Virus record (IMG/VR): IMGVR_UViG_3300036045_000052
Coordinates: 1-28,551 of that record
Direction: 5' to 3' (one strand)
From: a virus
Length of the DNA: 28,551 nucleotides
Under the pieces are notes generated by a model. The model was given only the letters and a program-made list of their open reading frames with translations. It made no database searches and had not been told where the DNA came from. How positions within the stretch are numbered: the stretch's first letter is position 1; the number at the start of each line of letters is the position of its first letter. Below are positions 4,416-27,208 of the stretch, piece by piece. Made by a program: the position numbers and the translations under genes.

Positions 4416-4628
4416 ATGAACCTCTATAAAATAATAGTTAATTTGATCGAAAACCCAAATACCCCCAGGTTTTACCGCATGGCAAGGGACTATTATAATA
4501 GTGTGGGCAAAACAAATGAAGCAAATGCTTTTAGATACTTATTGAAAATGAAATTTGGTGAAGATGATACCGTTAACGATACAGATGATAGTGAAGGAAC
4601 ACGAGGAGAATCTACAACAGACACTTGA
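4416..4628 (+). CDS. Small protein overlapping a TPR glycosyltransferase-like gene
   Basis: No family is recognised. The 70-residue product is helical in its first 45 residues (NLYKIIVNLIENPNTPRFYR, then ARDYYNSVGKTNEANAFRYL, a TPR-like helical hairpin) and ends in an acidic, Thr/Ser-rich tail. There is no clear Shine-Dalgarno before the ATG, which sits in the 11-nt gap to the divergent glycosyltransferase, so expression is uncertain. Its last 65 nt overlap the next gene in another frame. The TPR-like hairpin and the TPR domain of the next protein suggest they work together. Confidence 0.55.
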   Translation: MNLYKIIVNLIENPNTPRFYRMARDYYNSVGKTNEANAFRYLLKMKFGEDDTVNDTDDSEGTRGESTTDT

Positions 4629-5520
4629 TTCACTTGAAGAATTAGGCGGATCAATAATCATTGGACATGCTGGTGGTCAATTGCCAGCAACCAAGAATGC
4701 TGCCATTGTTAGAAAGCTATCACTGAAATCAGACATCTCTGTTACGAGAAATGAAATATCAAATAATTCCAATACAAATTGGCAGATGTATATCGAGCCT
4801 TGGGAGATTCTATTAAGCGGACACGAAGAAATTAAAAATGCTTTGGTTAATCCTCAGTCAAAATCTTTCTACATCAATATCATGCAAGGCGAAGACACAA
4901 TAACAAAACAGATTAGGATTTGGAATAAAAAAGAATGTCAATTTGTTAATCCTGTCTGTGAAAAAATTATAGATGATAATGCTGAGTACATTGATGCGAC
5001 AGTGTGGTCTGCAAAGACTGATATCAAATTCGACCTAATAGAGAAATGGAAAAAAACCAATCCACTTGCGTTAGAACCATACTACTATCAGTCTCTTTAT
5101 TGTTTAATGAATAAAAACTACAATGAATTTATTACTTTAGCGGATCATTACATGTTCCACGAAAAGAAAACTTCTATATCAAAAACAATGATGATGTATT
5201 ATCTTGGAATTGTAAATTGCTTTGTAAAAAGCAACCAGAACTCAGCTATTCATAACGCCCTGCTTTGTATCGCAGAACATCCACTCATGGCTGAGTTCTG
5301 GTGCTTACTAGGGGATGCTTACGCAAAAGTAAAAGAGTTTACTAAAGCAATTTCTTTTTACGAAAATGCAATTTTTCTTGGAAAAAATAGATTACAATCT
5401 GATAGATGGCCTGTTCAGATATCAAAATACGAGGAATATCCGCAAGAAATGATTAAAAAATGCAAAGAAATAATTTCTAACTCAAAAAATTTTGGACTTA
5501 AAAAGAATCCAAATCATTGA
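4564..5520 (+). CDS. Glycosyltransferase-like protein with C-terminal TPR repeats
   Basis: The 318-residue product begins with IPLTIQMIVKEHEENLQQTL, the opening of SUNS/TPR-type family 2 glycosyltransferases (normally 'MIVKNEE'), and continues with a GT-A-like region up to about residue 150. The usual donor-binding 'D-G-S-D' is replaced by GHAGG and no clear DxD is seen, so it may be catalytically degenerate or unusually diverged. The second half holds TPR-like helical pairs, clearest in AEFWCLLGDAYAKVKEFTKAISFYENAIFLG. ATG 4564 is preferred because translation then starts exactly at the conserved first strand; TTG 4555, GTG 4558 and ATG 4585 are alternatives. It overlaps the previous gene by 65 nt and the convergent next gene by 23 nt. 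Confidence 0.68.
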   Translation: MIPLTIQMIVKEHEENLQQTLDSLEELGGSIIIGHAGGQLPATKNAAIVRKLSLKSDISVTRNEISNNSNTNWQMYIEPWEILLSGHEEIKNALVNPQSKSFYINIMQGEDTITKQIRIWNKKECQFVNPVCEKIIDDNAEYIDATVWSAKTDIKFDLIEKWKKTNPLALEPYYYQSLYCLMNKNYNEFITLADHYMFHEKKTSISKTMMMYYLGIVNCFVKSNQNSAIHNALLCIAEHPLMAEFWCLLGDAYAKVKEFTKAISFYENAIFLGKNRLQSDRWPVQISKYEEYPQEMIKKCKEIISNSKNFGLKKNPNH

Positions 5521-8702: not shown

Positions 8703-8879
8703 ATGATTGAATGTTGTGTTCTCAGAAATTATTGGTTAGATCAGATTGCTAGAAGAAAAGAACAGGAAGTTAAAAATAAACTACTAAAAAAAATAGTAGA
8801 TAGAGTGGTCAAACTTACAATTGGGGTAAAAGGGAAATATGGCAACAAAGGATCGTTACCAAAATCCAGTAATAGGTGA
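8703..8879 (+). CDS. Possible small basic protein
   Basis: A 58-codon frame fills the 146-nt space between two clear genes and overlaps the next by 41 nt. The first half (YWLDQIARRKEQEVKNKLLKK) is a plausible amphipathic helix, but the C-terminal part is simply the shifted reading of the next gene's start. No convincing Shine-Dalgarno precedes the ATG. It may be a real peptide or just an open spacer. Confidence 0.32.
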   Translation: MIECCVLRNYWLDQIARRKEQEVKNKLLKKIVDRVVKLTIGVKGKYGNKGSLPKSSNR

Positions 8880-9582
8880 TACAGTTAAATTACGCTTGTT
8901 TGTGTTAAACAGCAATATGACTGCTGCTGTAGATGCAATAAGCAAAGTAGAAATCTATTACTTAGACCCAACTGCAAGAACGCCAAGCAATCCAGACGGT
9001 CGAACCTTGGTACAAACTGTGCCAGGGGGAAGCGTTACCAATCCGGCTCAAGGTGAATACCTTGTAGACCTATTCCTTGATCCTTTGATTTATACAGAAA
9101 CAGGGCGATACATTGATGAATGGTATGTAACATTTGAAACAGGTGATCCTGAGACGACATTAGATCACCTGTTTCAAATCTACCCTGATCTGTGGTACAC
9201 CACACCTATCCCAATTGTTTACGATTTCAGCTTTTATTTCCAACCAAATAAAATCAGGTACGGAAGCAAAAAGAATATTGAAATCGAAATAGTCCCAAAT
9301 GTCCCAAGGGCTACCGATTTAGAAAAGTATTATGAAAACCTTGCCATTGTTTCAGATTTGAAGGTTTCCATAGCACAAAAATGCGGTCCTTGCGTGCCTT
9401 GCGAAGAAGACTTAAAATTGATTGTTGACGACGCTCCCACAACATATCGTGAAAAATGCAGAGCGTACTATTTCCTAGATACCACCTTATTTGATTGCGG
9501 TGTCTATGACATATGGTTCAAACTAGAGTTTGGCGGCAACGTCTACGTCTCAGAAGTTAATCAACTTCAAATTTACAGTTAA
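8839..9582 (+). CDS. Probable virion structural protein
   Basis: No named family is recognised. The 247-residue product is almost all beta: an N-terminal domain (IGDTVKLRLFVLNSNMTAAV, ISKVEIYYLDP, GEYLVDLFLDPLIYTETGRYIDEWYVTFE) with an immunoglobulin-like rhythm, and a second similar domain ending CGVYDIWFKLEFGGNVYVSEVNQLQIY. A CGPCVPC cysteine cluster lies near residue 183. It sits among baseplate and tube genes and has a good AAAGGG Shine-Dalgarno, so a role in the virion, perhaps baseplate or fibre attachment, is likely but inferred. A perfect 17-bp inverted repeat lies within its coding sequence (9132-9179). Confidence 0.7.
   Translation: MATKDRYQNPVIGDTVKLRLFVLNSNMTAAVDAISKVEIYYLDPTARTPSNPDGRTLVQTVPGGSVTNPAQGEYLVDLFLDPLIYTETGRYIDEWYVTFETGDPETTLDHLFQIYPDLWYTTPIPIVYDFSFYFQPNKIRYGSKKNIEIEIVPNVPRATDLEKYYENLAIVSDLKVSIAQKCGPCVPCEEDLKLIVDDAPTTYREKCRAYYFLDTTLFDCGVYDIWFKLEFGGNVYVSEVNQLQIYS
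9132..9179. repeat. Perfect 17-bp inverted repeat inside a structural gene
   Basis: Arms 9132-9148 and 9163-9179 are exact reverse complements with a 14-nt loop (9149-9162). The arm core is GAAACAGGTGATC. It lies entirely in coding sequence, encoding residues around VTFETGD and LDHLFQI. Confidence 0.8.
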
Positions 9583-10391: not shown

Positions 10392-11297
10392 ATGGTTTAT
10401 TCAAGTCGCTTTGTTGCTTGTGTATTGATTGATGGCAAGCCACAAAAAGAACTACACAATGGTGTGGTTCCTATTCCTTTCGGCTGTAACTACAGCCTAA
10501 GATTCAGAAACAAAAACAACAGACGAGCAGTAGTTAAATTCACTATTGATGGCGAAGATGTATCTGGCCCTGGATATATTATCCAGCCAAATTCACACAT
10601 TGACATACATAGGCATTCAAATAAAGATGCTATGTTCAAATTTGTTGAATTAGATTCACCAGAAGCTGTGGATTTCGGCAAAAATGGGCCAAATGATGGC
10701 ACTAAAGGTGTTGTTGTAGCACGTTTTTACTTGGAAAAACTCTACAAAATGCCAGTACAACAACCATCTCCGTGGTACAATAATTTGCCGCCTTCACCAA
10801 ATTGGAACCCGCCTTCTCCATACCCAATACCAGATAAGATATTTCTTGACAATACAAACATACCTTCAAAGATAGATGTAACTTGGGGAAATGCGCCAAA
10901 AATAGATTTAACTTGTGGGAATGCGTCACAAGTAGGCCCAGGTTGGGGGGCACAAAACTCTTGTGGAAAGGGAATGTCATCTGGGCTTCCGCAATCAATT
11001 AACTATTGCGCCCAACCAACAACATTTGGAACATATATTCCTTCTCCGACACCTACGCCGACTCCTTTGCAAGAAGGATGCACGGTAGAAGGAGAAAGAT
11101 CAGGACAAACTTTCTCAACTCAGTATATTGATCTGGAGCATGATTACACTACAGTAACCTTATTCCTAAAGGGATTTTCCGCTCAGTCATCGTTTGTAGC
11201 CCCAGCTAGACAATCATATTGCTCTAATTGCGGTGCTAAAAAAGCAAGAGACGCAGATAAATTCTGCGGGGTTTGTGGCAATCGCTTTAGTAACTAA
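10392..11297 (+). CDS. Three-part protein: beta domain, Pro-rich linker, C-terminal zinc ribbon
   Basis: The 301-residue protein opens with a beta domain, about residues 1-125: KELHNGVVPIPFGCNYSLRF, NKNNRRAVVKFTIDGEDVSG, then IQPNSHIDIHR and MFKFVELDSPEA, a jelly-roll-like pattern seen in phage and bacterial surface or decoration proteins. A Pro/Asn-rich linker follows (around residues 125-160), then low-complexity sequence with PTPTPTP. The last ~25 residues form a zinc ribbon, YCSNCGAKKARDADKFCGVCGN (CxxC-x11-CxxC). The position after tail genes and before a strong hairpin suggests a late virion or assembly role, but I cannot name a function. AAGGAG precedes the ATG. Confidence 0.68.
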   Translation: MVYSSRFVACVLIDGKPQKELHNGVVPIPFGCNYSLRFRNKNNRRAVVKFTIDGEDVSGPGYIIQPNSHIDIHRHSNKDAMFKFVELDSPEAVDFGKNGPNDGTKGVVVARFYLEKLYKMPVQQPSPWYNNLPPSPNWNPPSPYPIPDKIFLDNTNIPSKIDVTWGNAPKIDLTCGNASQVGPGWGAQNSCGKGMSSGLPQSINYCAQPTTFGTYIPSPTPTPTPLQEGCTVEGERSGQTFSTQYIDLEHDYTTVTLFLKGFSAQSSFVAPARQSYCSNCGAKKARDADKFCGVCGNRFSN

Positions 11298-11299
11298 AC

Positions 11300-11339
11300 G
11301 ACAAGGGGTTAGGGACAACCGTGTCCCTAACCCCTTGTC
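11300..11339. terminator. Strong 18-bp hairpin after the structural block
   Basis: Positions 11300-11317 are the exact reverse complement of 11322-11339 with a 4-nt loop (ACCG). There is no U-run downstream, so it may stop polymerase with a factor, or protect the 3' end of the mRNA. It lies 3 nt after the stop of the zinc-ribbon gene. Confidence 0.65.
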
Positions 11340-11553
11340 TGGCTTCTACATCATATAGCCTCTCCCAAATTTATATTTGGTCAAGACCATGTATATATGT
11401 ACATGACTATTAATTTTACCAGTCTGCGGGCATTTTTTCCGCAAGAAACTTCCAATTTGGAATTGTCAAGCGGAAAAAGTTTACGACGGCCAAATCCGTG
11501 GTACAACACAAGCATGTAGTTTTTCACATTCGCCCTGCCTAGAGGTTATGGTT
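11340..11553 (+). promoter_or_regulatory. Hairpin-rich intergenic region before the DGQHR/MoxR/VWA cassette
   Basis: No coding frame is convincing here. Visible structures are CCAAAT/ATTTGG at 11365-11380 with a TTAT loop, CATGTA/TACATG at 11388-11405 around TATATG, and a nested pair in which TTTTTCCGC (11434-11442) pairs with GCGGAAAAA (11470-11478) and encloses CAATT-TGG-AATTG (11453-11465). The region therefore probably forms a folded leader for the gene at 11554. AGAGG at 11541-11545 is the Shine-Dalgarno for that gene. No clear sigma-70 promoter was found. Confidence 0.45.
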
Positions 11554-12804
11554 ATGTCTAAAAGAAGCCGCCAGAAAGCAAAGCGACGTGCTGAAGCTGA
11601 ACGATTGCGTAATACGGCAGCAGTGACCGCTAACGCCCCAGATGGCCTTGGCAGGCCAAGTATTGCACAAATCGTTTTGCAACGTGTGTCTGAACTAAAC
11701 CCTCCGCAAACCGTTGCGAACATCAAAACTGTTGATGTTCCCTCAAAACAACTCCCCGTAGTCCAGCAAGAAGACAACTGGCCAGATAACTGGCCCAGGT
11801 GTCCAGCCACATGTTCAAAGCTGGAGTGGGAGCGTGCGCTTCAAAACAAGGAGCATTACGAGCTTGCGTCATTGGAAGATGACCTTCGCAAGCCGTGGTT
11901 CCAATATCCGAAGCACCCCTATCAGTATAGCGAATTCGTTTTTTGTACACCCGAAATGATGGGGGAAATGTTGAAGTACATGCCCATCAATCGTGATTTG
12001 AAGGAGTCATGGGCGGATGCAATCGCTCGTGATATCACGAATGATCGCTGGTTGCAAACACACGAATCAATTGCGATTAACACGCAAGGGAATATGCACG
12101 ACGGGCAGCATCGTGCGCAAGGAATCCTGAAGGCAAACAAGGGATGGCCCATCTACATCACTTGGAATGTGCCGCCAGAAGCAATCTATGTCACCGATAG
12201 TGGCGAAAAACGCAAGATCAACGAGAAGTTGGCTTTGCTTTTCCCTGAATCGAAATTGACACAGAAAACTGCTGCACTTTGCCGATCCATGATGTGGGGG
12301 TTGTCAACCCGTGGCGTTAGGTATAGTGAATCGGAAATTGCTGAATTCGCTGTAAAATACGCAGCAGCAATTGCATGGGTGCATCGCTACATGCGTGCCT
12401 ATCGTGCAGATTTGCAGGCAGTTATCGCCAAGGCAGTATTGTGGTGGGGAGAAGAAGCTGTATTGCCGTTCGTGGAGAGGTTGAACAAGATCGAATTCAC
12501 TGGTGATGGTGATCCAGCAAAAGCACTCTACTTGTGGCTGATGCAAGCCCGTCAAAAGGGCAAACGCACAGGATATGCAAACCCACTAATCTACTACAAA
12601 AAGACCCTTGCTGCAATTCACGCTCATGTGAATAAAAAGAGCGCAACCAAGCTCTACCAAAGAGCGGATGACGTTTTTGAATGGCTCCCAGGATGGAATG
12701 TGCCAGAAAACGCACCGCACAAGGGTAAAATCTTCGTAAACGATCCCCTCGCTGATCTTCCTGAAGAAGAGGAATCTTCAGAAGAAGATGGTGACAACCA
12801 GTGA
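11554..12804 (+). CDS. ParB-like DGQHR-motif protein
   Basis: The 416-residue protein begins with a very basic segment (SKRSRQKAKRRAEAERLR), then a linker, and a ParB/Srx-like domain centred on residues 135-210: YMPINRDLKESWADAIARDI, W-x-x-THESIAI, and NMHDGQHRAQGILKANKGW. DGQHR (residues 183-187) is the hallmark motif of this superfamily, whose members bind DNA or nucleotides. Residues ~265-400 form a helical domain whose core, AKAVLWWGEEAVLPFVERL and LYLWLMQAR, recurs as a separate gene at 16024. The tail is acidic. ATG 11554 is preferred over ATG 11548 because AGAGG then lies 8 nt upstream. It heads the cassette and ends in a hairpin terminator. DNA binding or segregation is inferred from the fold, not shown. 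Confidence 0.72.
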   Translation: MSKRSRQKAKRRAEAERLRNTAAVTANAPDGLGRPSIAQIVLQRVSELNPPQTVANIKTVDVPSKQLPVVQQEDNWPDNWPRCPATCSKLEWERALQNKEHYELASLEDDLRKPWFQYPKHPYQYSEFVFCTPEMMGEMLKYMPINRDLKESWADAIARDITNDRWLQTHESIAINTQGNMHDGQHRAQGILKANKGWPIYITWNVPPEAIYVTDSGEKRKINEKLALLFPESKLTQKTAALCRSMMWGLSTRGVRYSESEIAEFAVKYAAAIAWVHRYMRAYRADLQAVIAKAVLWWGEEAVLPFVERLNKIEFTGDGDPAKALYLWLMQARQKGKRTGYANPLIYYKKTLAAIHAHVNKKSATKLYQRADDVFEWLPGWNVPENAPHKGKIFVNDPLADLPEEEESSEEDGDNQ

Positions 12805-20548: not shown

Positions 20549-21007
20549 TTACACAGGTGTATTTAGTCCTGGGGGTGGCATCATACTAGCTGGTTGTTGT
20601 TGAGAAGCAGGAGGCGGTGTCTCCTTTTGCGGCTTAGGCTCTTGTTTCTTTGGTTTAGAACCCAACTTATTTATAGGAGCGGCAATCTTGTGAGATAAAT
20701 CTTCAAGTTCCGATCTTACGCTATTAAGCGTCTCGGTTAAATCGCCTTTTTCATCAATACACTTCATCAAAGCAACGCCGCATTTCTGTAACCTTCTCAG
20801 AAACTTGTACTCGGTCCTTGGCCAACTCGTATGTAAAATCTTCCTAATCTGATTTACCACACCCTCTGTGTGCTTTACCAACTGTCTTGCACCAACTTGC
20901 TTACCTCCTTGTACAAGTTCATGTACAGAGGTAAGCAAGTCTCCTACCTTGTGACCAAGATATTCATGCTGTTCGTTCAAGATAAATCTCTTAAAATGCA
21001 TTTCCAT
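20549..21007 (-). CDS. Helical hypothetical protein with Pro/Gln-rich tail
   Basis: No family is named, but the pattern is that of a conserved phage protein. Residues 1-105 are helical: FILNEQHEYLGHKVGDLLTS, VNQIRKILHTSW, FLRRLQKCGVALMKCIDEKGD and LEDLSHKIAAPINKLG. The last ~45 residues are Lys/Pro/Gln-rich and likely disordered. It starts 5 nt after the stop of the CTP synthase gene with a weak Shine-Dalgarno, so is probably expressed by read-through. A 13-bp perfect inverted repeat lies within it (20895-20940). Confidence 0.65.
   Translation of the reverse strand: MEMHFKRFILNEQHEYLGHKVGDLLTSVHELVQGGKQVGARQLVKHTEGVVNQIRKILHTSWPRTEYKFLRRLQKCGVALMKCIDEKGDLTETLNSVRSELEDLSHKIAAPINKLGSKPKKQEPKPQKETPPPASQQQPASMMPPPGLNTPV
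20895..20940. repeat. Perfect 13-bp inverted repeat inside a coding region
   Basis: Arms 20895-20907 and 20928-20940 are exact reverse complements (core CTTGCTTACCTC). Inside, TGTAC (20910-20914) pairs with GTACA (20923-20927), so the RNA could form an extended hairpin with an 8-nt loop. It lies within the first third of the helical hypothetical gene. Confidence 0.7.
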
Positions 21008-21012
21008 AAAAA

Positions 21013-22665
21013 CTATGTAGTTTCTTCATCGCTCGTTTTTTGTGTAACAATGCCTTTCTTTTCAAGGGCAGCTTGAATCAAACCAGCAAATAATGGTGCA
21101 GGAGAACCCAATCTGCTCTTGAATTCAGGATGCGCTTGAGTAGCAACAAAATAAGGATGATTTTCCTTGCTAATCTCTATCATTTCAACCAGATTGCTAT
21201 CTGGATTTTTGCCAGATACCAACAGTCCAACTTTTTTCAAGGTATCAATATAATCAGGATTGACTTCGTATCTATGACGATGCCTTTCACTGATAAGTTT
21301 CTTCTTATAAAGATTAGCGACAATACTATCTTTTATCAACTCGCAGTCATAAGCACCCAGCCTCATTGTACCAGATTTTTTCCTAAGTCCTTCCTGCCCT
21401 TCGACAAAATGAATGACTGGATTTTGGGTAGTGTTGCTAAATTCCGTGCTATTGGCATCAGCAAGTCCACAAAGATTTCTTGCTACCTCGATAACTGCAC
21501 ATTGCAGTCCCAGGCAAATCCCAAGAAATGGGATTTTCTTTTCTCTAACGTATTTTATTGCACGAATTTTACCTTCAACACCACGAGAATCAAAGCCGCC
21601 AGGAACAATAACTCCGTCAACTCCTTCAAAAAACTTCCAAACTCCACGCATATCTTTTGATTGCTCAAGAGTTTCCGCTGAAAGCCAGCGGATATTAACA
21701 CGGGCATCCCATGCCACACCCGCATGGTACAAAGCTTCTTTGAGACTAAGATAAGCCTCATCACAATTTTCATATTTGCCTACAATGGCAATCTCTACAT
21801 CTGGCAAATCCTCACCACCAACATACTTTTCAACCAAGTCACGATATTTGTGGATTCTGCAACCATTTCTTTTTAGGTGGAATTTATCAGCAATCAGATC
21901 GTCAATATGCCTATTGTAGAATTCGATTGGAACCTGATAAATCGTGCTAACATCTGGAGCGGTGAACACCGCTTCACGGGGGACGTTTGTAAGGTTAGAA
22001 ACCTTGTCCAAAATCTTAGTTGGAATCTCTTTGTCAATTCGGCAAAGCAGGATTTCTGGTTGAAGCCCGAAACCCTGTAATTCTTTAACTGCCTGCTGTA
22101 AAGGTTTGGTTTTGAACTCCTTGATTGTGGGAATCCACAAAATAGGAGCAACCAAAACAATTAAAACATCATTCCAGTTTCTTTGCTTGAACTGCCGTAC
22201 CGCCTCAAGAAAGCATCCGCTTTCCAAGTCGCCAACGGTGCCACCGATTTCTGCAATGACTATCTCAGAGTCTTTGCCCAAATCCTCTAATCTTTCTTGA
22301 ATTTTATTTGTGACGTGAGGAATAATCTGGACTGTTTGCCCAAGATATTTGCCTTCTTCCTCTTCTTTTAGAATTTCTTTGTATACAGTGCCACTGGTAA
22401 GGATGTTTCTGCCGGAAACTTCCATATTGATGATTCTTTCATAGTGCCCCAGGTCAAGGTCCGTTTCCGAACCGTCTTCGCACAAAAAAACCTCGCCATG
22501 CTCACGGGGCGCAAGAACCCCAGCATTAACATTCAAATAAGGATCAAGCTTAATAGGGGATACTTTGTGCCCTCTTAAATTTAGCAACAAACCAATAGAT
22601 GCAGCAGATATACCTTTGCCGGTGCCACTGATTACACCACCAACTACCACTATGTACTTAGACAT
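21013..22665 (-). CDS. pyrG: CTP synthase
   Basis: Converts UTP to CTP with ATP and ammonia from glutamine. The 550-residue protein is full length for the family. The synthetase domain (residues ~1-270) has GGVISGTGKGISAASIG (P-loop, 9-25), KLDPYLNVNAG, REHGEVFLCEDGSETDLDLG, then QIIPHVTN and IAEIGGTVGDLE. The glutaminase domain (~285-540) has VPGGFDSRG, the nucleophile loop LGICLGLQ (Cys384) and the His-Glu pair of QAHPEFKSR. 'SGTGKG' differs from the usual bacterial 'SSLGKG' and is closer to the archaeal/eukaryotic form. GGAG lies 7 nt before the ATG. It follows the reductase gene after a structured 137-nt gap, suggesting one nucleotide-supply operon. Confidence 0.93.
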   Translation of the reverse strand: MSKYIVVVGGVISGTGKGISAASIGLLLNLRGHKVSPIKLDPYLNVNAGVLAPREHGEVFLCEDGSETDLDLGHYERIINMEVSGRNILTSGTVYKEILKEEEEGKYLGQTVQIIPHVTNKIQERLEDLGKDSEIVIAEIGGTVGDLESGCFLEAVRQFKQRNWNDVLIVLVAPILWIPTIKEFKTKPLQQAVKELQGFGLQPEILLCRIDKEIPTKILDKVSNLTNVPREAVFTAPDVSTIYQVPIEFYNRHIDDLIADKFHLKRNGCRIHKYRDLVEKYVGGEDLPDVEIAIVGKYENCDEAYLSLKEALYHAGVAWDARVNIRWLSAETLEQSKDMRGVWKFFEGVDGVIVPGGFDSRGVEGKIRAIKYVREKKIPFLGICLGLQCAVIEVARNLCGLADANSTEFSNTTQNPVIHFVEGQEGLRKKSGTMRLGAYDCELIKDSIVANLYKKKLISERHRHRYEVNPDYIDTLKKVGLLVSGKNPDSNLVEMIEISKENHPYFVATQAHPEFKSRLGSPAPLFAGLIQAALEKKGIVTQKTSDEETT

Positions 22666-22687
22666 TTAACAACTCCGTAAACAGTAT

Positions 22688-22797
22688 CACCCTAAATGAA
22701 TCAGTCAAACCCAGCTAGTTTCAAAATTTGACTTTAGTGTCTAATCGAACCCATTAACACAATTGGCTCATTAGACAAAATTGATTCACTTAGGGTG
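22688..22797 (-). ncRNA. Candidate three-way-junction RNA between the reductase and CTP synthase genes
   Basis: Read on the minus strand, 22782-22797 pairs with 22688-22703 (16 bp, 15 Watson-Crick plus one G.U) to form a closing helix. Inside it, 22770-22777 pairs with 22738-22745 and continues, after one bulge, as 22765-22769 with 22747-22751 (one G.U). A second arm pairs 22727-22732 with 22704-22709. Both non-canonical pairs are G.U only in the minus-strand RNA (they would be A.C in the other strand), so the fold suits the transcript. No U-run follows, so it is not an ordinary terminator. It fills the 5' leader of the CTP synthase gene. Confidence 0.45.
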
Positions 22798-22802
22798 TGC
22801 TG

Positions 22803-25076
22803 TTATATCAGTTGGCAAGAACCACCGGAACACGCCCATTCTCGTTGAACGCTTGTGTTGTCTTCTTCCTCGATCATACCACTATAATCAACATCCTTGT
22901 ATTCTCGATTCAAATCGAGCCATGTCTTCCAGTTATTAACATCTTTCAAGCAATAAGTCATTTGCCTGTCATCGCCGCCGAAATATCTCTCGGCAAACTG
23001 TTTTGCACGTCTCACCCAATCGACCTGTAAATGGTACTGATTTCTAGCCTGGATAAATTCTTGGACACCAACAACATCGTCAACTGATGACACTGGTTCT
23101 GTTAATGGCGCTCCATATCCTAGCACAGCCTCACACGCCCTCCACAAATTATTGTCGAAGCAATGCAAGCCATCTACGATCAATCCACTAGCCATTATGC
23201 TTCCGTCACCATACATCGAAACAATTTCTTTCGGAGTATAAACAGCACACATGGGGGCTTGTGGAAAATCTTTGTCACCGGAAATCGGCAGCAAACTGAT
23301 TCCGGCAAAAAATTTCCTGTTGTCGTAAATGAAATCGGCTACTTTGTCCCATTCATCAGGGCGTACATTAATTGTATTAGAAACGTTATGCATCAACCAA
23401 GATTGTGTGCAACGTTCTGCAACACGTCCATAAGTGACCCAATTTTGCTGGGTTAGCTTAACATGTTCTAAAAGAGTAATAGCGTCAAGATCATTCTTGG
23501 TTTTTGCACCATCTGGCACGGTTATACAGAAGGTCACAACCTCATCAGTCTTATTCGCAGACCAAACACTTCGCTCGACAGCGTGATGGTTGAATCGCTT
23601 AAACCACTGAAGAGGCGCTTCCATCTGGTTGCCCTGAATTCTTCTGAAATACCTCTTTGCATGGTGAGGATGGATACCGCTTCCAGTTCCAAGAACACAA
23701 GAAGTTGTTCCTGCTGGCTTGACACAAGTTGCTCTGGCACAAGGATTAATCCCCAATTTAGGAGCAATTTCCTCATTGGTCTTGAGTATTAGTTCGGCCA
23801 TTTCACGTTGAAGCTTGGCATCAAAAATAATATCGGGATTATCCATCATGCCAGTGATAGAAACTCCCAATAAAGCCTCACGTTCAACGATTTTCTTGGT
23901 CACACTACCAAGATAATCAAAATCAGAATAACCAGCCTGCAATGTCCCAATGATAGCACCAGCAACCGCTGCCTTGATCCAATCTTCACGAGACTTGATT
24001 TTTCTTCCATTCTGCTCGCAAAGATTGCACATCTGCCAACCAGATAGACCAGATTCTACTTCAACGGGCCACATGCCAATTTCTACACAAGGATTAACTA
24101 CTAATTCAGTGCTGTCTGCCCATACAAACCCTGGCTCACCGAATTCTTTAACTGCCTCCATCAAACGCATAAACTCTTTTTTGCTTGTCTTATTCCTTAC
24201 AAGCAATGCCGAATTGTTGGAGCGTGCCCTTTGTGGATTTTCATGGAACCAATTTCCCACCTTGGCATTAATCATATCCTCATCATCTGGACTAAACAAA
24301 CAAATACTTGCGGATCGACGCACGCCACCCGATAATACCGCATCGCTGCTATGCATAACAATATCGTAAGCATCAATAGAACGTAATCTGCTTTGCCCTC
24401 TAAGGATGCAGTTATCAAGTAAAGTTCTAATAATCTCAAGCGATCTACGCAATGGCTCTGGGCCTGGAGCTTTACCGCTACCAGAAGAAAGATAAGAGCC
24501 TGCTGGACGGATTAATGCATAATCGAACTCTACTTGGTAGCCCTCATATTCCGCAAACTCTTCATGGGGAATATAAGAGGCCAAAAGAATACCTAACGCA
24601 TCAGACCACCCTTCGATGCTATCTGGAATAAGAAACTTCTTAACGGGTTTTGTTTTGTTGGGGTTTAGAAGTTTCTTGCTAAACTCAGGTAGTTTGGCAA
24701 TATGGTGCTTTTGCACACTGAAACCTACGCCGCAACCACAAAGCAAAAGCCAAAATGACTCTTGGAAAAACCTAATTCGATCACAAAAACTTACAGTACA
24801 ATTGTAAATTCTTGCGTTCTTTTTAAGGATGGGTTCGCCGCCGAATTGCAGGGCACGCTGCGAACCTAAAACTCTTTTTTGTCTAACTTGGTCGAATGCC
24901 CATTCGATTTTTTCCGCTAATTCAGGATACATTTCAATTCTAGCAGCGTACTTCTTCAAGTGCATGTTCTTTACACGCTCTACTGCTTCCTGCCATGTTT
25001 CCCTTCTTTTAGCTTTTGCGTTGTACCTAGCATACTTGCTATAAAACGTGTATTCTTGTAAAGCTTTAATTGACAT
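22803..25076 (-). CDS. Class II (adenosylcobalamin-dependent) ribonucleotide reductase
   Basis: Reduces ribonucleotides to deoxyribonucleotides using a B12-derived radical, without a separate beta subunit. The 757-residue protein follows the monomeric RTPR type: IYNCTVSF (first redox cysteine), GCGVGFSVQK, SGSGKAPGPEPLRR, SGGVRRSASICLFS, NPQRARSNNSAL, the active-site NPCVEIG (N-x-C-x-E), MCNLCEQNG, VKPAGTTSCVLGTGSGIH, and a C-terminal CSGGSC that passes reducing equivalents to the active site. ATG 25076 is preferred (GAGG 9 nt upstream); a GTG 24 nt earlier is the alternative. It has its own sigma-70-like promoter and precedes the CTP synthase gene. Confidence 0.9.
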   Translation of the reverse strand: MSIKALQEYTFYSKYARYNAKAKRRETWQEAVERVKNMHLKKYAARIEMYPELAEKIEWAFDQVRQKRVLGSQRALQFGGEPILKKNARIYNCTVSFCDRIRFFQESFWLLLCGCGVGFSVQKHHIAKLPEFSKKLLNPNKTKPVKKFLIPDSIEGWSDALGILLASYIPHEEFAEYEGYQVEFDYALIRPAGSYLSSGSGKAPGPEPLRRSLEIIRTLLDNCILRGQSRLRSIDAYDIVMHSSDAVLSGGVRRSASICLFSPDDEDMINAKVGNWFHENPQRARSNNSALLVRNKTSKKEFMRLMEAVKEFGEPGFVWADSTELVVNPCVEIGMWPVEVESGLSGWQMCNLCEQNGRKIKSREDWIKAAVAGAIIGTLQAGYSDFDYLGSVTKKIVEREALLGVSITGMMDNPDIIFDAKLQREMAELILKTNEEIAPKLGINPCARATCVKPAGTTSCVLGTGSGIHPHHAKRYFRRIQGNQMEAPLQWFKRFNHHAVERSVWSANKTDEVVTFCITVPDGAKTKNDLDAITLLEHVKLTQQNWVTYGRVAERCTQSWLMHNVSNTINVRPDEWDKVADFIYDNRKFFAGISLLPISGDKDFPQAPMCAVYTPKEIVSMYGDGSIMASGLIVDGLHCFDNNLWRACEAVLGYGAPLTEPVSSVDDVVGVQEFIQARNQYHLQVDWVRRAKQFAERYFGGDDRQMTYCLKDVNNWKTWLDLNREYKDVDYSGMIEEEDNTSVQREWACSGGSCQLI

Positions 25077-25178
25077 TTCTTCAGTCCTCACTTCTCTCAC
25101 ATCTCCTGATCTAATTTAGCTGGGGAGATATGTAAGTGTTCATAACGAATTTTTTCGGCTATTAAAAATCAATGTGCT

Positions 25179-25210: not shown

Positions 25211-27208
25211 TCAATCGCATTTTGTAGTAACTTCGTCCTTCATTTGGAGTTGTACTTTGTCACAACCATCTAACATTTGTAGTAAACTTTCGTTGTGGTC
25301 AATGACAAAAACCTGCTTGTCCTTGGCAAGTTCGCAAATCATCCGATAAATGCCTTCAACTCCAATTTCATCCATATTCATGGACACTTCATCAAGAAAA
25401 ACAACAGATGGAGACGCACCAGAATTCAACTCACGGATGTGAGCAAATGATTGCCCCACACTAAGGTTCAATCGCCTTCTTTGACCACCTGACATGCCGT
25501 GGTACACATAAGGTCGCCCTTGAAATGGGAAACGATCAATGGTTTCATTGAAATTGGAATCAAAAATCAGTTTAATCTTATTATCAATCAAAAACTGTAG
25601 CCAGTAAGATATTCTGGAATTGAGAGCAGGAACGATGCCCTCAATAACATACTTTCTAATACCGTTATCTCCAAATGCCTTAATCCAGAAATCATAATAT
25701 GGCATTTGTGATTCTGCTTCGTCCAATTCCTTTTTCTTGTCCTTAACGGAATCTGTCATATCCACAACCTCTTGTACCAGAGATTGTTTAATAGACTGAA
25801 ATGGTGAAGGACCGTTGATTTCTTCTTTCTTAGCCTCCACTTGCTTTTTCAGTTCCTCAATCTGATCCTGAATCAGCAGTTCTTCAACATCCGCAGCAGG
25901 TTCTTTAACTTTGGAAAGCTCTGATATTTCAGAATGAATCTTAGTTATATCACTATTGGTTTTATCTAACTCTTGTTTCTTTTGAGTAATACCCTTTTCC
26001 ACTTTGGTTTTACTGGTTGTAATGGTTTGCAAATCTGTAGAGGCAGATTCCAAATCCTCAACAAATTGCGGCAAATTTGCACTATGCTCATCAACAACTT
26101 TCTGAGCCTGCAACATTATATTTTCAAAATTATCCTTGGTGATCTTGCTAAGACAATAAGGGCAATCCTTGCCAATTTTCTTAGCAGCATCTTTTATGAT
26201 CTTCTCATTTTCAGATATCAATTTTCTGCAATCTTCTACTACTTTATGGGCCTGATTATACTTATCGGTTGCCTTTTCATGGTTAGAATTTAGTGTTACA
26301 ATTTTGGGCGCAACATCTTCCAAAATCTTGGCAACACTAACCTTCTTGGCTTCCAATTCCAGAAGAAGCGTATTGAGTTCCTTGATTCGCTCTTGAGCTT
26401 CACAATATTTCGCTAGAGCGGCACCAGTGTCGCTTTTGTCTAACTGGTCACGTTTAGCCTTCAAGCTTTCCAACAACTTCCTCAAATCCTTTTCCTTGGA
26501 TTCTTTCCATTCCTTTTCTTGTTGTTCAATCTTCGTAATGCGTGTTCTAGCGGCATCTAGGTCGCTTAACAAATGCTGATAATCATTGGCCAGCAACTTT
26601 ACGTTATCTTTGACCTTTTTGGCCAAAAGCTTCGCTGAATCCGAATAGCCTCTATACTTTTCCAGAGAAAGTAAATTCTCAACTATTTCACGCTTAGTAG
26701 GCGTGTCGCACTCTAAGAAGCAATTAGTGTAATCATCTGTGAAGATAAATATGTTCACAAATGTTTCATAGTTTAGACCTATTAGTTGTTCAATGTATTT
26801 CTGTGTCGCTGGCATACCGCCTAAAGTAATTTCCGTAGTTTTATCCCATACGCCATCTGCACTCTTCCAAAGCCGCAGTCCATCTGGTTTACGGGTTCTA
26901 ACCACTCTATAATCGTCCCAACAAAGCTCCACATGCAAAGCCTTGCCGGATTTATTGTTGATAATGTCGGCATGACCAAGCTTTTTTGGTTTCTTAATCG
27001 TCTTGCCAAAAAGCGCATAGACTGGTATCTCTGGTAGTGATGACTTCCCGACACCATTGCTGGCCACTTTGTCTTCGTTTTCTACATCTAGGTTCTGCCC
27101 TTTAACAACAACGATGTTCCCATATTCGGAAAACTTCAGTTCAATTCCATCTGCTCCAAAGCAGAGAAAGTTCTTTGCTGAAGCGTATTTCAATTTCAAC
27201 TTACGCAT
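25211..27208 (-). CDS. Recombination endonuclease subunit, Rad50/SbcC-like (T4 gp46)
   Basis: ATPase subunit that with an Mre11-like nuclease (gp47) trims DNA ends for recombination-dependent replication. The 665-residue protein has a split P-loop: VVVKGQN (33-39), a 12-residue insert, then NGVGKSS (51-57). A long coiled coil runs from about residue 190 to 500 and is interrupted near residue 350 by the zinc hook KDCPYC. The C-terminal lobe has the ABC signature MSGGQRRRLNL (572-582), Walker B VVFLDE (602-607) and the switch His in FVIDH (634-638). AAGGAG precedes the ATG. It is separated from the presumed gp47 gene by one unrelated gene. Confidence 0.9.
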   Translation of the reverse strand: MRKLKLKYASAKNFLCFGADGIELKFSEYGNIVVVKGQNLDVENEDKVASNGVGKSSLPEIPVYALFGKTIKKPKKLGHADIINNKSGKALHVELCWDDYRVVRTRKPDGLRLWKSADGVWDKTTEITLGGMPATQKYIEQLIGLNYETFVNIFIFTDDYTNCFLECDTPTKREIVENLLSLEKYRGYSDSAKLLAKKVKDNVKLLANDYQHLLSDLDAARTRITKIEQQEKEWKESKEKDLRKLLESLKAKRDQLDKSDTGAALAKYCEAQERIKELNTLLLELEAKKVSVAKILEDVAPKIVTLNSNHEKATDKYNQAHKVVEDCRKLISENEKIIKDAAKKIGKDCPYCLSKITKDNFENIMLQAQKVVDEHSANLPQFVEDLESASTDLQTITTSKTKVEKGITQKKQELDKTNSDITKIHSEISELSKVKEPAADVEELLIQDQIEELKKQVEAKKEEINGPSPFQSIKQSLVQEVVDMTDSVKDKKKELDEAESQMPYYDFWIKAFGDNGIRKYVIEGIVPALNSRISYWLQFLIDNKIKLIFDSNFNETIDRFPFQGRPYVYHGMSGGQRRRLNLSVGQSFAHIRELNSGASPSVVFLDEVSMNMDEIGVEGIYRMICELAKDKQVFVIDHNESLLQMLDGCDKVQLQMKDEVTTKCD

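Follow-up and report, generated by a model that had tools for sequence, protein, structure and literature searches.

A predicted three-way-junction fold between nrdJ and pyrG in a hairpin-rich phage clade

What role, if any, does a strongly folding 137-nt gap play between the genes for a class II ribonucleotide reductase (nrdJ) and CTP synthase (pyrG)? The window that we analysed, the whole of a 28.6-kb virus record, belongs to a tailed phage, as indicated by matches to a tail sheath and a baseplate hub. Because relatives that share pyrG or nrdJ include contigs of 220–595 kb, what we have in the window is likely to be one part of a large phage. A gp46/SbcC-like gene, encoding a palindrome-specific nuclease subunit, adjoins nrdJ at 25211–27208 in this hairpin-rich phage. 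A preliminary description of the locus had proposed that the gap encodes a three-way-junction RNA, possibly a regulatory element tied to nucleotide supply.

The predicted fold and its placement

Folding of the transcribed minus strand across the junction (22670–22815) gave −54.2 kcal/mol and a z score of −6.10, with identical minimum-free-energy (MFE) and centroid structures and 0 of 200 shuffles folding as well. By GC-corrected energy the fold ranks second in the window. Its three helices lie within 110 nt and each contributes beyond chance (Table 1). The closing helix (16 bp), the bulged arm (13 bp) and the outer extension to the nrdJ stop codon fall where the preliminary description had placed them. 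The three-way junction itself was also correctly drawn and positioned, except that the second arm, given there as 6 bp, has 10 pairs in the MFE structure (22724–22733 with 22703–22712, three of them U.G pairs beside the loop). The 16 pairs of the closing helix include one G.U; the MFE structure counts 15, with the last A-U going to the second arm. In the bulged arm, 22765–22777 pairs with 22738–22751 through 13 pairs, one of them G.U. The second arm and closing helix abut with zero unpaired bases between them, and are predicted to be capable of stacking into about 25 pairs. An outermost 5-bp helix, missing from the preliminary description, touches the GGAG of the probable pyrG Shine–Dalgarno sequence. 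The fold begins with the nrdJ stop codon and reaches to 3 nt short of GGAG.

Table 1. Features of the nrdJ–pyrG junction
Feature	Position	Strand	Basis
nrdJ, class II ribonucleotide reductase, 765 aa, upstream gene	22803..25100	-	
Outermost helix, 5′ strand, within nrdJ end	22810..22814	-	predicted fold
nrdJ stop codon	22803-22805	-	
Outer extension, 5′ strand; takes in two nrdJ stop-codon bases	22800..22804	-	predicted fold
Closing helix, 5′ strand (CACCCUAAGUGAAUCA)	22782..22797	-	predicted fold
Bulged arm, 13 bp, bulged G at 22746, 4 apical pairs	22738..22777	-	predicted fold; z -3.79 for 22735-22776
Second arm, 6-10 bp	22703..22733	-	predicted fold; z -2.54 for 22702-22733
Closing helix, 3′ strand (UGAUUCAUUUAGGGUG), one G.U pair	22688..22703	-	predicted fold
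Outer extension, 3′ strand	22680..22684	-	predicted fold
Outermost helix, 3′ strand; overlaps last two bases of pyrG Shine–Dalgarno	22670..22674	-	predicted fold; sequence
GGAG, probable pyrG Shine–Dalgarno, 7 nt before ATG	22673..22676	-	sequence
pyrG, CTP synthase, 550 aa, downstream gene	21013..22665	-	

The plus strand of the junction also folds far beyond chance (−46.6 kcal/mol, z = −6.64), so significance alone cannot choose the strand. The transcribed strand is the more stable by 7.6 kcal/mol, and the inner 79 nt, taken without the outer helix, score z = −3.95 on the minus strand and −2.91 on the plus strand. The preliminary description had read the G.U pairs as the mark of a selected RNA. 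Only two interior pairs stand behind that argument, with a 1 in 4 probability of the pattern by chance, and wobbles across the clade's hairpins are strand-symmetric (see below).

Turnover of the junction among relatives

The two genes are adjacent or nearly so in 11 other lineages (L008, L012, L016, L019, L023, L024, L026, L027, L029, L036 and L092), separated by gaps of 9–732 nt whose sequences are unrelated to the junction of the window. Two of these gaps are empty (14 nt in L012, 9 nt in L026). L019 and L023 carry terminator-like hairpins and L016 and L029 other hairpins; by inspection, L092 has a small membrane-protein-like open reading frame with a similar one in L016, and L024 and L036 have an inserted reading frame resembling an HNH homing endonuclease. 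L027 and L029 are 83–86% identical on both flanks, and their junctions share no alignable sequence. Judged from these comparisons, the junction sequence is turning over fast. A three-branched fold in the L027 junction was rejected as not significant (z = −1.4). In L016, L019 and L026, nrdJ matches in two pieces with 1–1.5 kb between them, as by an intron or intein.

One way to account for the hairpin in the gap would be an nrdJ terminator followed by a separate pyrG promoter, as the terminator-like hairpins of L019 and L023 might suggest. The minus strand also contains TTGACT-16-TACTGT with a preceding TG. However, the closing helix is followed by AUACUGUUUACGG and no U-run, as the preliminary description had observed, and the candidate promoter inside the element is weak, agreeing at 8 of 12 bases in a window with 151 matches of that score class. 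We regard this arrangement as very unlikely.

The fold is absent from all 11 lineages, which at 60–70% nrdJ identity are too distant for a covariation test. The preliminary description had set beforehand, as grounds for abandoning its proposal, a lack of conserved pairing in related phages that share the gene pair, and such pairing is absent at that distance. Nor did the comparisons it suggested return a family or a homolog. No Rfam 15 covariance model scored the element at or above its gathering cut-off; under permissive thresholds the best score was 18.1 bits, where the cut-off is 75. A covariance model built from the junction element alone and run against 26 related records gave credible scores only for the element itself and its own reverse strand; the next match (14.5 bits, E = 0.04, on the L019 contig and its twin) was taken as chance.

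Searches by pattern, BLAST and covariance model likewise returned no second copy or homolog. The closing-helix pattern had 11 single-arm matches in viral contigs, none with the partner arm nearby, and BLAST of the junction against phages and plasmids gave chance matches of 21–25 nt or nothing. The paired-arm pattern had zero matches in genome contigs and two in viral contigs, both discarded as unrelated (one within a methyltransferase-like gene, one in unrelated repeats). As far as the data reach, the fold appears private to its lineage among the relatives searched.

These results bear on two further explanations. A regulatory RNA that controls pyrG by binding a ligand, either nucleotides or adenosylcobalamin, would suit a three-way junction lying 5′ of a CTP synthase gene and downstream of a B12-dependent reductase, and riboswitches upstream of nucleotide genes similarly have a multibranch fold in a leader-like position. 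Unlike them, the junction has no family match, conservation or conserved binding core that we could find. The unrelated gaps of the 11 lineages and the non-aligning junctions of L027 and L029 mean that a conserved nucleotide sensor is not supported, and the link to nucleotide supply that the preliminary description had raised is, in our judgement, barely credible. A mobile, palindromic MITE-like element inserted in the gap would explain the long imperfect terminal repeats, and genes have been inserted in the corresponding gaps of L024 and L036. The element is nevertheless single-copy, with several copies expected of such an element in related genomes, shows no clear target duplication and has the paired-arm search results against it, which together make mobility highly improbable.

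Hairpins throughout the genomes of the clade

The junction is set in a genome in which hairpins abound. The window contains seven perfect stems of at least 12 bp, against 0.3 in random sequence of equal dinucleotide content. Within genes, where the expectation was taken from synonymous-codon shuffles, the window has 4 stems of at least 11 bp against 0.5 expected. The same excess is found in IMGVR_UViG_3300014202_001521, a 340-kb contig that is the nearest large relative and among the nearest by pyrG (G001; loci L178–L180 and L187–L200), with 39 perfect in-gene stems of at least 11 bp against 4.6 expected and 15 of at least 13 bp against 0.1, and in a second relative (G002; loci L201–L203), with 4 of at least 11 bp against 0.7. 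Other nrdJ phages have no excess (3 against 9.5 expected). The clade is hairpin-rich across the genome, genes included; our literature search for hairpin-rich phage genomes found no account of them with the terms used.

The strongest fold of the window lies in another gap, 11288–11557 (250 nt at 11298–11547), which combines an 18-bp perfect hairpin with a second, imperfect one of 22 bp. Among the gaps listed, at most six per genome, only this one and the nrdJ–pyrG junction join z < −5 to a multibranch fold. Inside genes, a 17-bp perfect stem that closes a 14-nt loop occupies 9132–9179 (ORF 8839–9582) and is lacking from homologs, and an 11-bp stem at 24630–24677 (nrdJ codons 142–157) falls in the sole variable, length-changing loop of that region of the reductase.

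Two comparisons address how these stems arise. Interior wobbles were counted in near-perfect hairpins from the window and from six related phages. On the sense strand they were G.U in 12 cases and A.C in 15, so that no sense-strand preference marking RNA-level selection was found in clade hairpins. This symmetry makes the hairpins, as a class, look like products of DNA-level events. In a single case judged by eye, an in-gene hairpin common to L002 (7353–7378), L004 and L005, most of the differences seem to preserve pairing of the G.U type on the strand of the gene, in contrast to the symmetry seen on average.

The second comparison concerns the two arms of a hairpin. At 5234–5302 (ORF 4555–5520), the residues encoded by the 3′ arm, MAEFWCLLG, recur in the three homologs found. 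The 5′ arm (KSNQNSAI) differs from those homologs (KKDYQHAI, KKDYREAI) and corresponds instead to the 3′ arm read as its reverse complement. The 5′ arm thus appears to have been rewritten on the pattern of the conserved one, as by template switching; a rewritten arm that matches the reverse complement of the other is the signature of quasi-palindrome template switching (PMC7202029, PMC8604942). In the gene after pyrG, a perfect stem of 13 bp, continued by more pairs towards its apex (20895–20940 in ORF 20549–21007), is absent in 22 of 22 colinear homologs. Over 16 hairpins mean conservation was 0.51 for the 5′ arm and 0.65 for the 3′ arm, and arms did not differ significantly from the rest of the gene (p = 0.31). 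Template switching is the likely, though not proved, mechanism behind the stems of the clade.

A mechanical role and its precedents

A strong fold in a gap of so hairpin-rich a genome needs no conserved function to account for it. The main rival to a role in the message is that the junction is one more inverted repeat left by the hairpin-forming process of the clade, functionless in itself. The in-gene excess of hairpins, where an RNA role is not evident, speaks for such a by-product, as do the strand-symmetric interior wobbles and a junction free to vary. Against it, the junction packs three separate helices into 110 nt, each beyond chance, and few other gaps, among those listed in related phages, join so low a z score to a multibranch fold. 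We consider a functionless repeat unlikely, although a serious contender.

The reading that we tentatively prefer is that the nrdJ–pyrG message contains a structured intercistronic spacer, specific to the lineage, with a mechanical role and no ligand; its function is drawn from geometry alone. What favours this mechanical spacer is that the fold runs from the stop codon to a point beside the Shine–Dalgarno sequence and leaves an effective path of about 14 nt. Template switching in DNA, which would make imperfect inverted repeats more perfect, may well have produced the junction stems, an origin for which the support comes from the genome as a whole. The fold would leave a path of about 14 nt, in place of 137 nt, between the nrdJ stop and the pyrG start, similar to the 9–14 nt spacing of the gapless relatives, and pyrG translation could stay linked to that of nrdJ. 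Coupling between neighbouring genes peaks in efficiency at short spacing (PMC12548453). Beginning at the nrdJ stop codon, the fold could also form a stable 3′ barrier on the nrdJ mRNA. It speaks against a bridging role that ribosomes terminating on nrdJ would unwind the stem at its base.

The junction helix may possibly serve as a double-stranded processing site as well. Phage operons use RNase III-type sites, and the predicted fold does contain the long double-stranded helix expected of one, with the abutting closing helix and second arm giving the run of stacked pairs described above. A site selected as such, for RNase III-type processing or 3′ stabilization, would have cleavage of the long helix part the nrdJ and pyrG messages. 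No double-stranded site is kept in the relatives, however, and selection for processing seems improbable. Rather unlikely, too, is a broader version of the spacer reading: that a clade with unusually active template switching keeps writing long near-perfect hairpins, genes included, and that one of these has been recruited here as a three-way-junction bridge coupling nrdJ and pyrG translation.

Several known systems resemble the element. NEMIS/Correia and ERIC sequences are multicopy intergenic palindromic repeats that, to our knowledge, share its size of about 100–150 nt, its terminal inverted repeats and its intercistronic position, whereas the junction element is single-copy and relatives of it were not found. 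The RNase III sites of T7 are intercistronic stem structures. A long hairpin before gene IX of f1 is another intercistronic stem of a phage operon (reviewed in PMC12548453). Like these, the junction places a long stem between co-directional genes near the next ribosome-binding site; it differs in being three-way rather than a single hairpin, in being unconserved in relatives and in being predicted from sequence. Taken by itself, the element is an orphan among intercistronic structures of a well-known type, and its genomic context matters more. Structure searches in such genomes, we caution, will yield numerous strong folds other than regulatory RNAs. The nrdJ–pyrG junction has no homolog for comparison with the products of quasi-palindrome template switching (PMC7202029, PMC8604942), whereas the near-perfect in-gene inverted repeats of this genome resemble those products, with one arm seen to be rewritten at 5234–5302. 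Should template switching be responsible, the hairpin-rich phages would offer a natural system in which to ask how this process acts on coding sequence.
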